A stretch of DNA of 41,488 nt from a virus. The position numbers and the translations under genes are program-made. Every line of letters begins with the position of its first letter. The stretch's first letter is position 1. The stretch covers positions 1 to 41,488 of the IMG/VR virus record IMGVR_UViG_3300046507_000077. One strand, given 5' to 3'. Of the stretch, positions 1,773-40,878 are shown piece by piece. Under the pieces are notes generated by a model. That model saw nothing but the letters and a program-made list of their open reading frames with translations, searched no databases and was not told where the DNA came from.

Positions 1773-1788
1773 GATCGGAGGGGATTCC
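1773..1788 (-). promoter_or_regulatory. Early-promoter-like motif copy a
   Basis: The minus strand reads GGAATCCCCTCCGATC, one base off the GGGAATCCCCTYCGCTC consensus in its tail. It ends on the stop region of the HNH gene and is 34 bases from the primase-helicase GTG. Confidence 0.55.
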
Positions 1789-2204
1789 TACACTGCCGGT
1801 CCGAAGGTCTCCGCCCACTCCGCAAGCGTCTTCGCGCCCTTGCTCAAGTTGCAGCCGGCGCACGCGGGGAGCATGTTGGAAGCCTTGTCGGCACCCCCCT
1901 TGCTCAGCGGGTGGACGTGGTCCATGTGGGTTGCGCGCTTGTCGCAGTAGGCGCAGCGGTAGCCCCAACGGCGCATGATCTCTGTACGGCTGTACTTCTC
2001 GTGTTCAACGCCGTACTCAGCCGCGCGCTTCTTGTGGGTCAGCTCGTGCCGCTTGTCCGGCGGAAGCTTCGCGTAATACTGCTTCCGGTGGTCCGCTGCC
2101 CGCTTCCGGCGACACGTTGAGCACGACGAAGACGGACGCTTAGCCTTCCCGGCAAGGAACTGCTCAGCGGGCTTCGCTCGTCCGCAGTGCCGACACACCT
2201 TCAC
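1788..2204 (-). CDS. HNH endonuclease
   Basis: Protein of 138 residues with an N-terminal zinc knuckle (CRHCGRAKP followed by CSTC) and a C-terminal HNH core: CAYC, then MDHVHPLSKGG and CAGCNLSKG. This is the common free-standing HNH fold, which nicks or cuts double-stranded DNA and may be a homing enzyme or a recombination or packaging aid. The chosen GTG overlaps the TGA of the preceding gene (GTGA), the coupling used at many junctions here. A TTG at 2222 would add six residues. It lies between two small unknown genes and the primase-helicase, so replication or recombination is as likely as mobility. Confidence 0.85.
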   Translation of the reverse strand: MKVCRHCGRAKPAEQFLAGKAKRPSSSCSTCRRKRAADHRKQYYAKLPPDKRHELTHKKRAAEYGVEHEKYSRTEIMRRWGYRCAYCDKRATHMDHVHPLSKGGADKASNMLPACAGCNLSKGAKTLAEWAETFGPAV

Positions 2205-4728: not shown

Positions 4729-4748
4729 GGAGCGAAGGGGATTCCGAC
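4729..4748 (-). promoter_or_regulatory. Early-promoter-like motif copy c
   Basis: The minus strand reads GTCGGAATCCCCTTCGCTCC. It ends only ten bases before the RNA ligase ATG, so if transcription starts at or just after the motif the leader is about 10-15 nt. The same spacing and GCTCCGGTAMGGG context occur at copy j. Confidence 0.65.
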
Positions 4749-5070: not shown

Positions 5071-5090
5071 TTGAGCGGAGGGGATTCCCT
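5071..5090 (-). promoter_or_regulatory. Early-promoter-like motif copy d
   Basis: The minus strand reads AGGGAATCCCCTCCGCTCAA, a full match to the consensus, 34 bases upstream of the membrane protein ATG. Confidence 0.7.
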
Positions 5091-6203: not shown

Positions 6204-6236
6204 GCTCAAGGAATGTTTCTGCACTAGTCCTTGAGC
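6204..6236 (-). promoter_or_regulatory. Leader hairpin of the nuclease operon
   Basis: GCTCAAGGA pairs perfectly with TCCTTGAGC (loop of 15). Its 5' arm on the transcript is the last part of motif copy e. Confidence 0.5.
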
Positions 6237-6250
6237 GAAGGGGCTTCTCA
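6231..6250 (-). promoter_or_regulatory. Early-promoter-like motif copy e
   Basis: The minus strand reads TGAGAAGCCCCTTCGCTCAA, with one core change (AGCCCC for ATCCCC), 42 bases from the nuclease ATG. Confidence 0.55.
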
Positions 6251-9192: not shown

Positions 9193-9211
9193 AGAGCGGA
9201 GGGGATTCCCT
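9192..9211 (-). promoter_or_regulatory. Early-promoter-like motif copy f
   Basis: The minus strand reads AAGGGAATCCCCTCCGCTCT, a full consensus match, overlapping the last base of the holin stop. Confidence 0.7.
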
Positions 9212-13445: not shown

Positions 13446-14529
13446 TCTGGAATACGTCCTTACTCGCAAGGGAAAGCGCGACGGTCTCAGTTCCGTTCGC
13501 GTCAACGTCAACGCGTCGCTCAGTCAGTACGAAGTCTTCGAGCAAGCGGACGTAACCGGAGTCCACCTGTACCGTGCCGATCGCACCGGGCAGGAAGGGC
13601 AGCGGATCAAACATGCCCGGGTATAGCGTCAGCGTCGGAATCGCAATGACCTGACGACCCACAGCGGCAATCGCGTTGGCCTTCGGGATGAGATCCCCCG
13701 TGGCTTTCAAGTCGCTGTACGTGGCAACGTGGGTCAGCGCCGGCGTGTCAAGGTCGTTCGACTTCCACGCGTAGGGCTTCACGCCTGTACCCATGTCGGC
13801 ACCGAACGCGAACGAGCGCGTTGCTAGCTTGCTTCCGTCGTACGAAACCTGAGTGACGTTGCAATTCTCTTTGTGTACTAGAGCGGAAGGGATTACGTTC
13901 CGTCCCCGCCCGTTCATCATGAAGCGATTGCCAACGGTCCCGTCAGCGCGCCAATAGGTCTCGTACCGGAAGTCAAAGCCCCCGTCTTCGTCGGCAAGCT
14001 CGTTGATCGCTTCCGCCGTGTTCTTGAACTCCGAGAAGCCCCAGCTACGGGAACGAATCCGGCCGGTCGTGTTGAGCCACGACGTGTCAGTTCCAATGCC
14101 GCCTTCGTCGTTGGCAACTTCAATCCAGTCGCGCAACAGAAGGGCTTGATCCTTGTTGCCCTTGTAGCCCAACCACCTACCGGGAAGCCTGCCGCTGTCG
14201 CTCAAGCCCTCACGGAACCCGCCCAGGTAGCAAGTCGAGTAATACGAGTGCCACCCGGACGCGTTCATTGAGAGCGTTCCCGCTTCAAGGTCAGCCGTTG
14301 CCGTCCACAGCATCCCGCCCCAAACAGGCTCGTCGTCTCGCGTGATGACGAGCGCGCTCTTGCCGGGCTCCAATGTGTCGGGGTCGGCAGCGGTGAGCGG
14401 CATACCCACCGTTGCCGTACCCGCTGCGTTCAGCGTCTCGCCGTACTGAATCCCGGTGACCGGAAGTGAGCCGACGACTTCACCCGTCTTCGCAATGGTC
14501 TGCAAGACTTCATAGCGGGCAGCGGGCAT
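13429..14529 (-). CDS. Tail hub/baseplate protein, Gp37-like
   Basis: A 366-residue protein resembling the tail-hub family of siphoviruses of Actinobacteria (Gp37-like). It has an N-terminal beta domain (YEVLQTIAKTGEVVGSLP, VWGGMLWTATADL), a middle alpha/beta part and a closing beta domain with GYVRLLEDFVLTERRVDVDANG. Such proteins form the ring below the distal tail protein. The ATG at 14529 is preceded by an operator-like palindrome (14546-14563), so the tail-tip genes can be controlled separately from those upstream. The internal motif-like sequence at 13881 is coding and was rejected. Confidence 0.65.
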   Translation of the reverse strand: MPAARYEVLQTIAKTGEVVGSLPVTGIQYGETLNAAGTATVGMPLTAADPDTLEPGKSALVITRDDEPVWGGMLWTATADLEAGTLSMNASGWHSYYSTCYLGGFREGLSDSGRLPGRWLGYKGNKDQALLLRDWIEVANDEGGIGTDTSWLNTTGRIRSRSWGFSEFKNTAEAINELADEDGGFDFRYETYWRADGTVGNRFMMNGRGRNVIPSALVHKENCNVTQVSYDGSKLATRSFAFGADMGTGVKPYAWKSNDLDTPALTHVATYSDLKATGDLIPKANAIAAVGRQVIAIPTLTLYPGMFDPLPFLPGAIGTVQVDSGYVRLLEDFVLTERRVDVDANGTETVALSLASKDVFQNGDSS

Positions 14530-14545
14530 GGTTCCCCCTAGCTAG

Positions 14546-14563
14546 CCCACTCTTGAGAGTAGG
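14546..14563. promoter_or_regulatory. Operator-like palindrome 4
   Basis: CCCACTCTTGAGAGTAGG, one arm mismatch, in the 38-base gap between two tail genes. Confidence 0.7.
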
Positions 14564-14567
14564 CAAC

Positions 14568-15554
14568 TCACGTGTTGAAGGTGCTCTTGCTGAGCTGCAA
14601 GTTGATGTAAAGCGCGTTGATCGTGCCGACCGCTCCCAGCTCAAGCCCACCGCTCGTCATGAAGCCGAGTCGTGCGTCCGCGCCCGTGGCAGAGAAGAAC
14701 GTCTGACCGATCGTTCCGTACGTGTTGACCTTCGGCCGGCTGATCACGGCAGGTACGGAACCGATCGACACGAGCTGACCCGGTGCCTTGCTGGGGGAGA
14801 GATCCACGCGCCCGGAGAACTCCCACATGATGGAAGACTCACGCGCGTACAGCGTCCCGGAGACCGTCACGTTCGTACCGTCAGAAGCCTGATAGTTGGA
14901 GAGCGTGACTGCCTGCCACGGTCCGGGGTCAGTCGTGAACCACGTACCGTCAGCCTTCCGCGTCCAGCGCTGATTAGTGCCAATGTCGTACACGGTGGCA
15001 CCGACACCGACGTTCGACGCGGAGGGAAGCTGTCCGGCCCAATCCACAGCGATCGTGCTACGGCCGGCCAACGCTGCCTGATCCCGGTACTGACCCTGAT
15101 ACCGCGTGACGGTCAGTGTGAAAGTGGTCGTGGCCTTCGGTACGTCCACCCAACCCAGCGCAACGGCGTTGTCGGGACGAGCCGGAGCCACGGGAGTTGC
15201 CGCCGGAGTGCCGGTCACGATCTCGATTGCCACACCGTTCGTACCGTCAGCGGCAAGCGTGGTAAGCCGGGCAACGATCAAGTCCCTACGCGGGTTCACG
15301 CTTGAGGCAGTCTGGACAGCCACGGTTCCGCCCGGGGACCATGCCCACGTTGCACCACCGGCGGTCAGCCCCATGAACACGTTCCCAGCGCCCACAGCCA
15401 CCGTGCGGGCAGCCTGATCACTGCTCAGAAGGAAGTCAGACGTAGACGCGAACAAGTGGGTCATGCCCTGACGCGGCACGCTCAGGCTGTTGAAGTTCGC
15501 AAGGTCGTTACCGCCGTACGACACGCCTTCCTGAAACCATGCAAAGCCCGCCAT
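14568..15554 (-). CDS. Tail tip or receptor-binding protein
   Basis: A 328-residue, glycine-, threonine- and alanine-rich protein. The start (GFAWFQEGVSYGGNDLANFN) resembles phage proteins of the tail tip that begin with an appendage-anchoring segment, and VNPRRDLIVARL followed by VALGWVDVPK is seen in many actinophage minor tail proteins. The C-terminal third is beta-rich (MWEFSGRVDLSPSK). A receptor-binding or structural role is inferred from location between the Dit-like and hub genes. The ATG directly follows the previous stop. Confidence 0.6.
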   Translation of the reverse strand: MAGFAWFQEGVSYGGNDLANFNSLSVPRQGMTHLFASTSDFLLSSDQAARTVAVGAGNVFMGLTAGGATWAWSPGGTVAVQTASSVNPRRDLIVARLTTLAADGTNGVAIEIVTGTPAATPVAPARPDNAVALGWVDVPKATTTFTLTVTRYQGQYRDQAALAGRSTIAVDWAGQLPSASNVGVGATVYDIGTNQRWTRKADGTWFTTDPGPWQAVTLSNYQASDGTNVTVSGTLYARESSIMWEFSGRVDLSPSKAPGQLVSIGSVPAVISRPKVNTYGTIGQTFFSATGADARLGFMTSGGLELGAVGTINALYINLQLSKSTFNT

Positions 15555-27425: not shown

Positions 27426-27434
27426 CTGACTGTG

Positions 27435-27507
27435 TGGGTCGGGTAGGACTTGAACCTACAACGCGCGGGTTAAGAGCCCGCTGCTCTACCAATTGAGCTA
27501 CCGACCC
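27435..27507 (-). tRNA. tRNA-Lys (anticodon CTT)
   Basis: The gene folds as a full cloverleaf: acceptor GGGTCGG/CCGACCC, D-arm GCTC...GAGC, anticodon arm GCGGG-CTCTTAA-CCCGC (anticodon CUU, reading AAG), T-arm GTAGG-TTCAAGT-CCTAC, discriminator A. CCA is not encoded. PhiC31-type phages often carry one tRNA. It may support translation of the AAG-rich late genes or replace a cleaved host tRNA. Confidence 0.95.
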
Positions 27508-27630: not shown

Positions 27631-27650
27631 GAGCTAAAGGGATTCCCTAG
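27631..27650 (-). promoter_or_regulatory. Early-promoter-like motif copy g1
   Basis: The minus strand reads CTAGGGAATCCCTTTAGCTC. It is the downstream member of a tandem pair overlapping by three bases. Confidence 0.5.
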
Positions 27651-27667
27651 AGCGGAGGGGATTCCCG
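27648..27667 (-). promoter_or_regulatory. Early-promoter-like motif copy g2
   Basis: The minus strand reads CGGGAATCCCCTCCGCTCTA, a full match, directly upstream of g1. It reads towards tRNA-Lys and the late genes. Confidence 0.65.
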
Positions 27668-32681: not shown

Positions 32682-32717
32682 CTCAAGTGGTATGACGTTC
32701 TGTCAGCACCTCTTGAG
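32682..32717 (-). promoter_or_regulatory. Leader hairpin after motif copy i
   Basis: CTCAAGTGGT pairs with ACCTCTTGAG (9 of 10 positions) directly after the motif. Confidence 0.45.
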
Positions 32718-33146
32718 CGAAGGGGATTCTCTCTCTTCGTTCTCCGCTAGGTACCGGGCTTCGGCTTCCGCGTCCCACACAACCCAGGGGTCCCCGTCCG
32801 GCGCGTACCGGCCTAGATCAGCGTTCCACTTCCACGGGTAGACAGCGACCGCCTTACCCGTGCACTTGCTGTGCGCCACGAGCCGGAAGCGCGGGGGACC
32901 TTGCCGGACGAGCATTTGAGCGACGATCACGCCGTACGTCGTCAGGACACGGCTTACGTCTTGCTCAGTGATCACATGCTCTTCACCGGCCTTGCTGTGT
33001 TCGGGTGCGGGCTTCCATGTCCAACCGCCTTCCGGAGTCGGGACGTTGAACTCAAGCGTGAGTGTCACCTTCGGAGCTGCACGCCATGGCATACGTTGCG
33101 TCACCACCTGGGATTCGTAGTGATCGGTCGTTTGGCCGATTCCCAT
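32703..33146 (-). CDS. Hypothetical protein, 147 aa
   Basis: A protein with a beta-rich front (KVTLTLEFNVPTPEGGWTW), a helix (VITEQDVSRVLTTYGVIVAQ) and a tryptophan-rich rear (VYPWKWNADLGRYAPDGDPW). No family recognised. The ATG at 33146 has no clear ribosome site; ATG 33092 with AGGTGG upstream would give 129 residues. The last codons contain motif copy i, so the promoter for the next gene is inside this gene. Confidence 0.6.
   Translation of the reverse strand: MGIGQTTDHYESQVVTQRMPWRAAPKVTLTLEFNVPTPEGGWTWKPAPEHSKAGEEHVITEQDVSRVLTTYGVIVAQMLVRQGPPRFRLVAHSKCTGKAVAVYPWKWNADLGRYAPDGDPWVVWDAEAEARYLAENEERESPSLKRC
32713..32732 (-). promoter_or_regulatory. Early-promoter-like motif copy i
   Basis: The minus strand reads AGAGAATCCCCTTCGCTCAA. 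It is inside the 3' end of the 147-aa gene, 43 bases from the next ATG. Confidence 0.65.
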
Positions 33147-34499: not shown

Positions 34500-34519
34500 C
34501 GGAGCGGAGGGGATTCCCG
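34500..34519 (-). promoter_or_regulatory. Early-promoter-like motif copy j
   Basis: The minus strand reads CGGGAATCCCCTCCGCTCCG, a full match, between an operator-hairpin and the 73-aa gene. Confidence 0.7.
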
Positions 34520-35584: not shown

Positions 35585-35670
35585 TGCCCCGGGCGGGATT
35601 CGAACCCGCGTCGTCCCGTGCACCCTTGCGGGCTCCGGATTGGGGTGCTCTTCCGTTGAGCTACCGGGGC
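35585..35670 (-). tRNA. tRNA-like gene with an abnormal anticodon arm
   Basis: A stretch of 86 nt with acceptor GCCCCGG/CCGGGGC plus discriminator A, D-arm GCTC-AACGGAA-GAGC, and T-arm GCGGG-TTCGAAT-CCCGC, all perfect. The 37 bases between them do not give a 5-bp stem with a 7-base loop. ATCCGGA would read as an Arg loop (CCG) but its flanks (CCCCA, GCCCG) do not pair; CACCC and GGGTG pair instead around 17 bases. It is a degraded tRNA-Arg or a non-standard structure. Confidence 0.6.
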
Positions 35671-35932: not shown

Positions 35933-35952
35933 TGGAGCGAAGGGGATTCCCC
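35933..35952 (-). promoter_or_regulatory. Early-promoter-like motif copy k
   Basis: The minus strand reads GGGGAATCCCCTTCGCTCCA, overlapping the stop of the endonuclease VII gene. Confidence 0.7.
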
Positions 35953-36239
35953 TACCGATCAACCCGGCGGTAATCCGCGTCACGGGTGAGGTAGTCGGCA
36001 GCGCGTAGAAGGCGCTCAGGGTCGTCTTTGAAGTGGCCTAGGGCGAGATTGCACGAGTGGCACAGAACGCCCCGTACGCGCCCCGTGGCGTGGTCGTGGT
36101 CAATGCTGTGAGCCTTGCCGTTGGCCGGCGGAAGGGTGCCGCATATGGCGCACGGACGGGCCCGCAACTCCAATGCCACGGAGTCCACGAGCCCGTACCG
36201 TCCCGCACGGTTCCAAACCGCGTAGCGGGGACGCTTCAC
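35952..36239 (-). CDS. Endonuclease VII-like HNH nuclease
   Basis: A 95-residue protein with the T4 gp49-like core: CAICGTLPP, then HSIDHDHATGRVRGVLCHSC, NLALGHFKDDPERLLRAADY. Endonuclease VII resolves branched DNA. Actinophage versions are usually longer and begin with a zinc ribbon (C-x2-C, C-x2-C). That ribbon is here at the C-terminus of the upstream sigma-like protein. GTG 36239 overlaps that gene's stop (GTGA). Confidence 0.85.
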   Translation of the reverse strand: MKRPRYAVWNRAGRYGLVDSVALELRARPCAICGTLPPANGKAHSIDHDHATGRVRGVLCHSCNLALGHFKDDPERLLRAADYLTRDADYRRVDR

Positions 36240-37249
36240 GCAGCGGCAGCCTTCTTGCGCGCGTTGTACGCACGCTTCTGCTCAGCGCGCTTCTCCGGGT
36301 TGTCCTTGCGGAAGCGCTTCGTGGCTCCGCGCTTGCACGACTTGCACTGAGACGCACGCGCGCCGGTGACCTTGTTCCGAATGTAGAACTCGTCAACGGG
36401 CTTCTCGAACCCGCACGACTTGCAGCACTGCGTTTCACCCTTGGGGGCTTCCGGGCTACCGCCCAGGTACAGCGTCTTGAAGTTCTTCCGGGCTTCGTCC
36501 CTCACGCTCTCAACGGCCGTGTATGCGACTCCGGCCACTTCGGCAAGTCCCCGGTGGTCGTCGGCACCGAGACACGGGAAGTCGCCAATGCCGTACTCAG
36601 CGGAAAGAACGGCTTCCTGTTCGGCAGGCAGAAGGTCAAGGGTCTCGTGGACGCGTCGCTTGTTCTCGCGCTGCCGCTGGGAAAGTTCGTCGTTCGCCTC
36701 AGCGCGGGCAATCTCGTACGTGTCGTTCAGTCGGTCGGCAAGCGTGGCGCTAGGACCCTCAACGTCCCCGCCCATGGGCGCGTCAAGGTACTCAGCACCC
36801 TGCCACGAGATACGAGCGGCGTACGCGGTCTCAGCGGTCATGCGCTTGCTGCCCATGACTTCGTGCAGGGTGCACAGCCGCTCAGCTTCGTACGGGTCAC
36901 CGGCTGCCATGCTCAGCGCCTTCTCAAACTCAGCGGCAATCGAACGGCTGACACCCTGCCGCGTCACGGTCTTGCGCTCGTCGCTGAGCTTCCCGGAAAC
37001 GGTCCGGTCCATGAAGGTGAAGAACTCAGCGACAGACGAGCCGGTGAAACGACTCAGCCCTTCCCACACGGCCACCCGACCCACCTGGGCAAGATCGTCC
37101 ATCAAGTCAGCGTCGGTGCGTCCGCCGGTCGTTGCGTACCGCCGGGCAAGCTGAGACACGCGCTCTTCGGTCGCTTCAATCACGGCGCTGACAGCGGCAA
37201 GGTCGTTGTTCTGAGCGGCGGCAATCTGCTGTGCGGTCAGGTCGATCAC
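36236..37249 (-). CDS. Sigma-70-like protein with C-terminal zinc ribbon
   Basis: A 337-residue protein. DDLAQVGRVAVWEGLSRFTG and AEFFTFMDRTVSGKLSDERK (51-93) resemble sigma region 2. LPAEQEAVLSAEYGIG, LAEVAGVAYTAVESVRDEAR and KNFKTLYLGG (207-264) resemble region 4 with its helix-turn-helix. A ribbon (C276, C279, C302, C305) and a basic tail close it. Regions 1 and 3 are not obvious. A phage sigma would redirect host polymerase. GTG 37249 follows AAGGAG, and a consensus motif copy lies 35 bases upstream, allowing self-activation. It may instead be an antiterminator-like regulator. Confidence 0.75.
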   Translation of the reverse strand: MIDLTAQQIAAAQNNDLAAVSAVIEATEERVSQLARRYATTGGRTDADLMDDLAQVGRVAVWEGLSRFTGSSVAEFFTFMDRTVSGKLSDERKTVTRQGVSRSIAAEFEKALSMAAGDPYEAERLCTLHEVMGSKRMTAETAYAARISWQGAEYLDAPMGGDVEGPSATLADRLNDTYEIARAEANDELSQRQRENKRRVHETLDLLPAEQEAVLSAEYGIGDFPCLGADDHRGLAEVAGVAYTAVESVRDEARKNFKTLYLGGSPEAPKGETQCCKSCGFEKPVDEFYIRNKVTGARASQCKSCKRGATKRFRKDNPEKRAEQKRAYNARKKAAAA

Positions 37250-37273
37250 TGGGGAATCTCCTTCGAGTGGCTT

Positions 37274-37303
37274 CGCTCCGGAATGGAGCGGAGGGGATTC
37301 CCA
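37274..37303 (-). promoter_or_regulatory. Early-promoter-like motif copy l with leader hairpin
   Basis: The minus strand reads TGGGAATCCCCTCCGCTCCA (37284-37303), a full match, upstream of the sigma-like gene. CGCTCC (37274-37279) pairs with GGAGCG (37285-37290). Confidence 0.7.
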
Positions 37304-37463
37304 CCGAAGGAGTCAGGACGTTTGCCCAGGTCACAGCCTGTTTTGGGCATGGCTTCGCCACGGAATGGCGAAAATGGGTGTCACGGCCTGAGCCCCGTCA
37401 GTGGGCGATTCGTGCGACGGGGCGTGATCAAGGCCGTACGTCGTGGTGCTCTTCGAACGTATG

Positions 37464-37503
37464 TCAGTGCCTACTCAGAAGCAACGTTCTGAGTAGGCAC
37501 TGA
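37464..37503. terminator. Perfect 17-bp hairpin containing operator half-arms
   Basis: TCAGTGCCTACTCAGAA pairs perfectly with TTCTGAGTAGGCACTGA over the loop GCAACG. It includes CCTACTC/GAGTAGG, the outer arms of the operator family, separated by a longer centre. There is no T-run on either side. Confidence 0.75.
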
Positions 37504-37650
37504 ACTTCAATATGACCACGAGCGGAGACGAGCCGGAAGCGCAAATCGAAGGTGCAACCCGGGGCTCATCCTTCGGGATGACGGTTGTACTCCCCCGATA
37601 ACAAGGGGGTCACCTTTGAATCGTAGAAACGACGCTTCGGGGCTCGTCAG

Positions 37651-37668
37651 CCCACTCTTGAGAGTAGG
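37651..37668. promoter_or_regulatory. Operator-like palindrome 12
   Basis: CCCACTCTTGAGAGTAGG in the noncoding region downstream of the polymerase. Confidence 0.7.
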
Positions 37669-37681
37669 CAGTGAATCGTGA

Positions 37682-37710
37682 TCCGGCCGTGACCGAATCG
37701 AACGGCCGGA
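37682..37710 (-). terminator. Hairpin terminator after DNA polymerase
   Basis: TCCGGCCGT pairs perfectly with ACGGCCGGA, loop of 11, 27 bases past the stop. The T-run is poor. Confidence 0.65.
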
Positions 37711-37736
37711 CAGAAGCGGAAGGTGGCACAGCTCAC

Positions 37737-40822: not shown

Positions 40823-40878
40823 CCCCTCCGCTCTCAGTTGGTTGCTTGTACCTGACTGAGAGCGGAGGGGATTCCCAC
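40823..40878 (-). promoter_or_regulatory. Early-promoter-like motif copy m with 16-bp inverted repeat
   Basis: The minus strand reads GTGGGAATCCCCTCCGCTCTCA (40857-40878). CCCCTCCGCTCTCAGT (40823-40838) is the exact inverted copy of 40855-40870, 16 bases apart. The downstream arm contains the methyltransferase ribosome site. Confidence 0.7.

Follow-up and report, generated by a model that had tools for sequence, protein, structure and literature searches.

PhiC31 serves as a model phage, and its early promoters have been reported to need a phage factor. SPO1 encodes such a factor in gp28, an early-encoded sigma factor that turns on the next class of phage genes from promoters of ordinary spacing, and gp55 of T4 is a sigma factor without a full region 4 domain. 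T4 gp55 acts late in infection, recruiting the RNA polymerase of the host to promoters of the phage (PMC3014915). A hairpin hides the Shine-Dalgarno sequence in long transcripts of the T4 genes e, soc and I-TevI, and transcripts from a promoter that lies within or beside the 5' arm are unable to fold; for gene e and I-TevI, the early read-through RNA is untranslated and the RNA from the late promoter is translated (PMC3014915, PMC2988022). Our literature searches returned no paper on the question addressed here, although key phiC31 papers were outside their scope.

We analysed a 41,488-base virus record, referred to below as the window, from a phiC31-type Streptomyces phage near Heather; the minus strand carries the genes. 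Our main reading, to which we assign a probability of roughly 0.8, is that a phage sigma-70-family factor reads a strand-specific early motif, sustains an autocatalytic regulon and is made from a hairpin-gated leader. The gp12-family sigma factor would bind host core RNA polymerase, the sigma-bound polymerase would go to the motif before early and replication genes and before the sigma gene itself, and activation of its own promoter would render the early regulon autocatalytic. Such a factor resembles SPO1 gp28, at the level of the sigma family, in being an early phage sigma factor and would differ from it in promoter spacing. T4 gp55 serves late genes together with gp33, whereas the window factor would serve early and replication genes and its own gene; likewise, the hairpin-gated genes of T4 are late genes, whereas the gated gene in the window encodes the sigma factor that probably activates the promoter. 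For phiC31, the analysis names a likely early factor, its target sequence and the domain that would read each half of it.

Identity and domains of the sigma protein

The sigma gene (36236..37249, minus strand) is an open reading frame of 337 aa with a GTG start; the initial annotation had extended it to 37303, an end that includes the upstream motif copy. Its phiC31 orthologue is gp12, already annotated in RefSeq NC_001978 as ‘RNA polymerase sigma factor’, and the window protein matches PHROG 15865, of the same designation, at 2e-49. The Heather orthologue is 92% identical, and the gp12-family gene stands after the DNA polymerase gene in synteny with phiC31, phiBT1, TG1 and Heather. Window protein and phiC31 gp12 are alike in gene, in this place and in the order of regions 2 and 4, and differ in that the Heather/window lineage adds a Cys-rich C-terminal tail and the motif read differs in sequence. 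The sigma identity of gp12 was already annotated; the present analysis adds its pairing with a motif, the correspondence between sigma domains and motif parts, and a conserved hairpin at its own promoter.

A search against Sigma70_r2 and Sigma70_r4, which the initial annotation had suggested as a check, gave a mixed outcome. For the window protein alone, the Pfam Sigma70_r2 match was borderline (E 3.5e-5; 23.9 bits, just below the cut-off of 24), and Pfam region 4 gave no match. Across the family, Sigma70_r2 was matched by 28 of 32 members and Sigma70_r4 by one of 32 (7.7e-7), and a gp12 family profile searched against the PDB matched sigma factors over both regions, with region 4 aligned to that of RpoD/RpoS/SigA. 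Nearly all PDB matches of this profile were sigma factors, and the exceptions were at chance level (E above 0.2). The AlphaFold (AF2) model has a pLDDT of 82.5, with values above 90 over the greater part of regions 2 and 4, and resembles PDB sigma factors along residues 1-265; sigma factors were its best Foldseek/VIA matches. The closest structure was the SigB-promoter complex 8x6g (Z 13.1, residues 2-263), and model residues 3-101 superpose at 2.4 A on 4lup, in which sigma-E region 2 is bound to -10 single-stranded DNA. A sigma-70-family fold is thus well supported by the family profile and the predicted model, both of which also bear out the earlier statement that regions 2 and 4 of a sigma factor are recognisable.

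The region 2.2 signature DDLAQVGRVAVWEGLSRF (residues 51-68) is conserved in the family, and binding of core RNA polymerase by the window protein is no more than an inference. Residues that co-vary with the motif and the 4lup superposition are the evidence for the region 2.3-2.4 equivalent (residues 73-104; 36938..37033, minus strand). Co-varying residues and the family profile likewise support the region 4 equivalent (residues 196-262; 36464..36664, minus strand), which contains the predicted recognition helix (residues 243-261; 36467-36523, minus strand).

The Cys-rich, zinc-finger-like tail (residues 269-332; 36254..36445, minus strand) belongs to the Heather-type lineage only and is missing from the phiC31, phiBT1, Rowa and Shaeky versions. 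It matches the N-terminal parts of the phage endonuclease VII families phrog_1035, 2340, 2255 and 2633. An endonuclease VII (HNH) gene (35952..36239, minus strand; Endonuclease_7 PF02945, 2.6e-21) overlaps the sigma stop codon by 4 nt (GTGA). Over 35952-36445 (minus strand), the sigma C-terminus corresponds to the Cys-rich front of endonuclease VII, and the overlapping HNH gene is without that part. One relative (L015) has a tailed sigma protein together with a complete endonuclease VII, and another (L024) has an untailed sigma protein followed by a complete endonuclease VII. In Arthrobacter phage Yang (L101), a possible distant sigma-like protein annotated as ‘RNA polymerase’ (13816-14631) lies downstream of the polymerase gene and adjoins an endonuclease VII gene.

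The motif and the inferred transcription start

The motif GGGAATCCCCTYCGCTC occurs in the window in 13 copies at up to three mismatches, all of them on the minus (coding) strand, against a mean of 0.22 and a maximum of two in 100 dinucleotide shuffles. The copy before the sigma gene, GGGAATCCCCTCCGCTC (37286..37302, minus strand), lies 37 nt upstream of the gene and is proposed as a promoter element; it is exact, which confirms the perfect copy noted in the initial annotation. Exact minus-strand copies also stand upstream of the dNMP kinase orthologue (9194..9210), of an early ORF in the position of Heather gene 26 (5073..5089), of the ORF after the HNH gene, in the position of phiC31 gp13 (35935..35951), and of the methylase orthologue (40860..40876), where the motif is followed by GAGAGCGGAGGGG, complementary to it. 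Copies with two mismatches precede primase (1773..1789, about 50 nt upstream of its start) and the exonuclease (gp1) orthologue (6233..6249), and two abutting copies with 0 and 2 mismatches (27631..27666) lie upstream of tRNA-Lys (27434-27507). The early region has a further copy with one mismatch (32715..32731). At two sites, the start codon falls 27 nt after the motif start and the mRNA may be leaderless: an exact copy before a GTG start (34502..34518) and a copy at 4730..4746, where Heather has an RNA ligase gene. The last copy is weak (three mismatches; 13881..13897) and lies in the tail-gene region. Among relatives, phiC31, phiBT1, TG1 and Vash share a motif copy within the tail operon, ahead of a minor tail gene and followed by T[AG]TAGGTAGG (L002 12977, L005 12334, L006 12303 and L009 12320); an early promoter would be unexpected at such a site.

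In order to follow the motif across relatives, 68 viral loci with gp12 relatives were fetched and 62 of them were tabulated. The automatic motif search misplaced registers in some loci; those of divergent clades were set by hand and checked by sense and antisense counts. A clade-specific single-strand motif was found 44-64 nt upstream of the sigma start in every tabulated relative, as well as before other early genes, and further matches over the 62 loci numbered 409 on the sense strand versus 57 on the antisense strand. The window motif is absent from phiC31, where the single-strand motif is another one, GGGTTGCCGACTYCCTT. Among seven annotated phages, the genes preceded by a motif are those for dNMP kinase, gp1 exonuclease, gp2, RDF, primase, methylase, polymerase, sigma, gp13, gp25 and tRNA, but not each gene in each phage. 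No clear motif of this register was seen at three sigma-bearing loci (L029, L051 and L065). In Dubu and phiSASD1, the motif repeated before primase was not found before the sigma-like gene, and self-activation is therefore not universal. The self-amplifying early regulon that had been suggested for the window is thus supported by the motif copy before the sigma gene in the 62 tabulated loci but does not extend to the sigma-like genes of these two phages. Dubu and phiSASD1 (L099 and L100) have larger sigma-like proteins in the same place and the primase motifs CCGGGAGAGGTTCTC and GACGTCCTCCCCGG.

Averaged over 380 sites, a Y-R-A-R-R block is found 27-32 nt after the motif start; a few genes have their start codon exactly 27 nt after it, and in several short-leader genes the Shine-Dalgarno sequence begins at position 31-32. 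These positions suggest that transcription starts about 28 nt after the motif start, which would place the motif at about -27 to -11 and, by inference, the start of sigma gene transcription near 37274-37275. A less good fit to the inferred start is given by the conserved site before the minor tail gene of phiC31 relatives, where the Shine-Dalgarno sequence runs from position 25. The motif is a single 17-nt block, and its two halves, separated by about 11 bp, would lie at approximately -27/-21 and -17/-11, the start site being inferred only. Such spacing would be tighter than the 17 bp between the -35 and -10 elements of an ordinary sigma-70 promoter and is not accounted for. A canonical bipartite sigma-70 promoter was visible neither at the motif nor in the gap between the polymerase and sigma genes. 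Two alternative placements were rejected. A start about 38 nt after the motif start, with the 5' half and a GA-rich block as a canonical -35/-10 pair, would leave the Shine-Dalgarno sites of polymerase and methylase ahead of the RNA start. A host-type promoter overlapping the phiBT1 sigma motif (TTGACA-N16-TAGGTC) is absent from the window, and its TAGGTC is also explained by a hairpin stem.

Co-variation of motif and sigma protein

If gp12 reads the motif, then motif and protein should change together. In order to avoid linkage, we turned to the primase copy of the motif, some 5 kb distant from the sigma gene, and chose the site by its match to any family motif. Divergence of this primase-upstream motif was associated with that of sigma (partial r 0.62, p 0.0005) and not with that of primase (partial r -0.09) or polymerase (0.11, p 0.09). 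When RDF and exonuclease were added as controls (40 phages), the partial r for sigma was 0.59 (p 0.001), and those for primase, polymerase, RDF and exonuclease all lay within 0.04 of zero. RDF is an about equally divergent control (0.50 versus 0.55 for sigma). These are Mantel tests on p-distances, by which shared ancestry is not fully removed, and the sample amounts in effect to about 21 independent sequences.

When the motif was divided, its 5' half was associated with region 4 (0.35, p 0.001) rather than region 2 (-0.14) and its middle with region 2 (0.57, p 0.001) rather than region 4 (0.11), while its 3' part was weakly associated with both (region 2, 0.20; region 4, 0.16). Of the 13 mapped residues that show the strongest association with the 5' half, eight fall in region 4 (P 0.004), and the region 4 residues include Y243, A245, E247 and R254 of the recognition helix; for the middle and 3' part, five of 13 fall in region 2.3-2.4 (P 0.011). 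The comparison supports a correspondence of the 5' half with region 4 and of the middle and 3' parts mainly with region 2, domains by which these parts would mainly be read.

Because motif and sigma co-vary beyond four neighbouring proteins, ‘reader of the motif’ is the best-supported description of the protein. It most likely steers host RNA polymerase to the motif, its own promoter included, but no binding or transcription data are available. The initial proposal that it directs polymerase to the motif therefore gains support from the sigma fold and the co-variation, on comparative evidence alone. The relatives comprise dozens of natural sigma/promoter pairs, which could be put to use in Streptomyces as orthogonal switches for gene expression.

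The sigma leader hairpin and rival readings

The sigma leader is predicted to form a hairpin (37258..37312, minus strand; z -3.95, -29.5 kcal/mol) with the motif in its 5' side and the Shine-Dalgarno sequence GAAGGAG (37258-37264, minus strand) in its 3' arm. In nearly all clades, the stretch of RNA that begins just ahead of the motif and runs up to the start codon is predicted to form a long hairpin, with the Shine-Dalgarno sequence as 3' arm. Because a MAFFT alignment of the leaders leaves the stems out of register, the pairing of each phage's own arms was compared with that of permuted arms. Own arms paired more strongly in both the outer stem (-16.2 versus -11.0 kcal/mol) and the inner stem (-10.4 versus -7.8), with 0/5000 permutations in each case; arm sequences vary between phages yet pair within each phage, as expected of compensating changes. 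The predicted accessibility of the Shine-Dalgarno sequence is 0.15 in read-through RNA versus 0.45 if the RNA starts 3 nt after the motif. As judged by prediction and by own-versus-permuted pairing, the sigma leader has the arrangement of T4 gene e, with the Shine-Dalgarno sequence paired in read-through RNA. An Rfam search of the window found only two tRNAs, and the hairpin is therefore not a described family. The second of these tRNAs (35585-35670, minus strand; Rfam tRNA, 50.9 bits) was not called by ARAGORN and has an anticodon arm that seems degenerate or longer than usual.

Read-through RNA, for example from the polymerase gene, would fold and hide the sigma Shine-Dalgarno sequence, whereas RNA begun at the motif, inside the hairpin, would lack the 5' arm and leave sigma translatable. 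The self-activation loop of sigma is probably gated by this hairpin, and the source of the first sigma protein is not explained. With such a leader, sigma may act as a threshold switch that controls both the transcription and the translatability of its own mRNA. A more specific scheme would join a compact promoter, whose boxes one helical turn apart are read by region 4 (-27/-21) and region 2 (-17/-11), to a doubly gated autocatalytic sigma gene that is translatable only from its own in-hairpin promoter; we offer this as a tentative model that may well prove wrong. A T4-like hairpin at every motif gene was considered and rejected. Shine-Dalgarno accessibility is lower overall in genes with the motif (0.26 versus 0.42 in others, p 2e-7), but compensation is weak or absent in primase leaders, where the outer stem was not significant (277/5000), and our claim of gating is for this reason limited to the sigma gene. 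Pairing between motif and Shine-Dalgarno sequence outside the sigma leader was likewise weak (32/5000).

The motif could instead be an RNA element, namely the 5' arm of Shine-Dalgarno-hiding hairpins, that exerts translational control only, while the sigma-like protein acts elsewhere. Its strand specificity and nearness to starts, a 3' half that is often complementary to the Shine-Dalgarno sequence, the reduced accessibility at motif genes and the strong compensatory hairpin at the sigma gene would all be accommodated. Such an element would not be expected to track the sigma protein domain by domain from about 5 kb away, however, nor does it sit well with the weak pairing outside the sigma leader or with the motifs of several clades, which show little Shine-Dalgarno complementarity; we regard it as improbable. 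The same domain-wise tracking bears on a reading in which another phage protein, an activator, recognises the motif and the sigma-like protein follows it as part of one co-evolving system. A dimeric activator would suit a compact 17-nt motif with halves one helical turn apart, and the co-variation analysis covered sigma and four other proteins rather than all phage proteins. Polymerase, primase, RDF and exonuclease nonetheless left no residual association, and the pairing of the 5' half with region 4 and of the middle with region 2, together with the location of the top-ranking residues in the recognition helix and in region 2.3-2.4, points to sigma itself, so that we allow the activator only a slight chance. 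Recognition of the motif by the sigma protein remains the preferred reading.

Instead of gating translation, the hairpin could halt transcripts that run in from the polymerase gene, as a transcription terminator that lacks a U-tail. A stable GC-rich stem does end the intergenic region between polymerase and sigma, and terminators without poly-U tails were reportedly the subject, going by its title, of a 1995 paper on the phiC31 early region. Yet the 3' arm is the Shine-Dalgarno sequence itself, lying only a few nucleotides from the start codon, an arrangement shared with T4 gene e and I-TevI, and no U-tract terminator was found in this intergenic region. A terminator in place of a gate appears rather unlikely without being dismissible, and the hairpin may serve both functions at once.

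The gap between the polymerase and sigma genes is about 490 nt in the window (37250-37736) and about 470 nt in phiC31. It contains an operator-like palindrome and, near 37467-37504, a long inverted repeat, and could hold a first promoter for the sigma gene. Near-palindromes of the form CYACTCTYRAGAGTRGG occur at 13 positions in the window (2624, 8201, 8497, 14547, 16442, 21443, 24711, 27409, 33353, 33705, 34542, 37652 and 39721) and probably represent the operators at which the repressor of this phage binds; in phiC31, CCTACTCACGTGAGTAGG takes the place of this type of near-palindrome.
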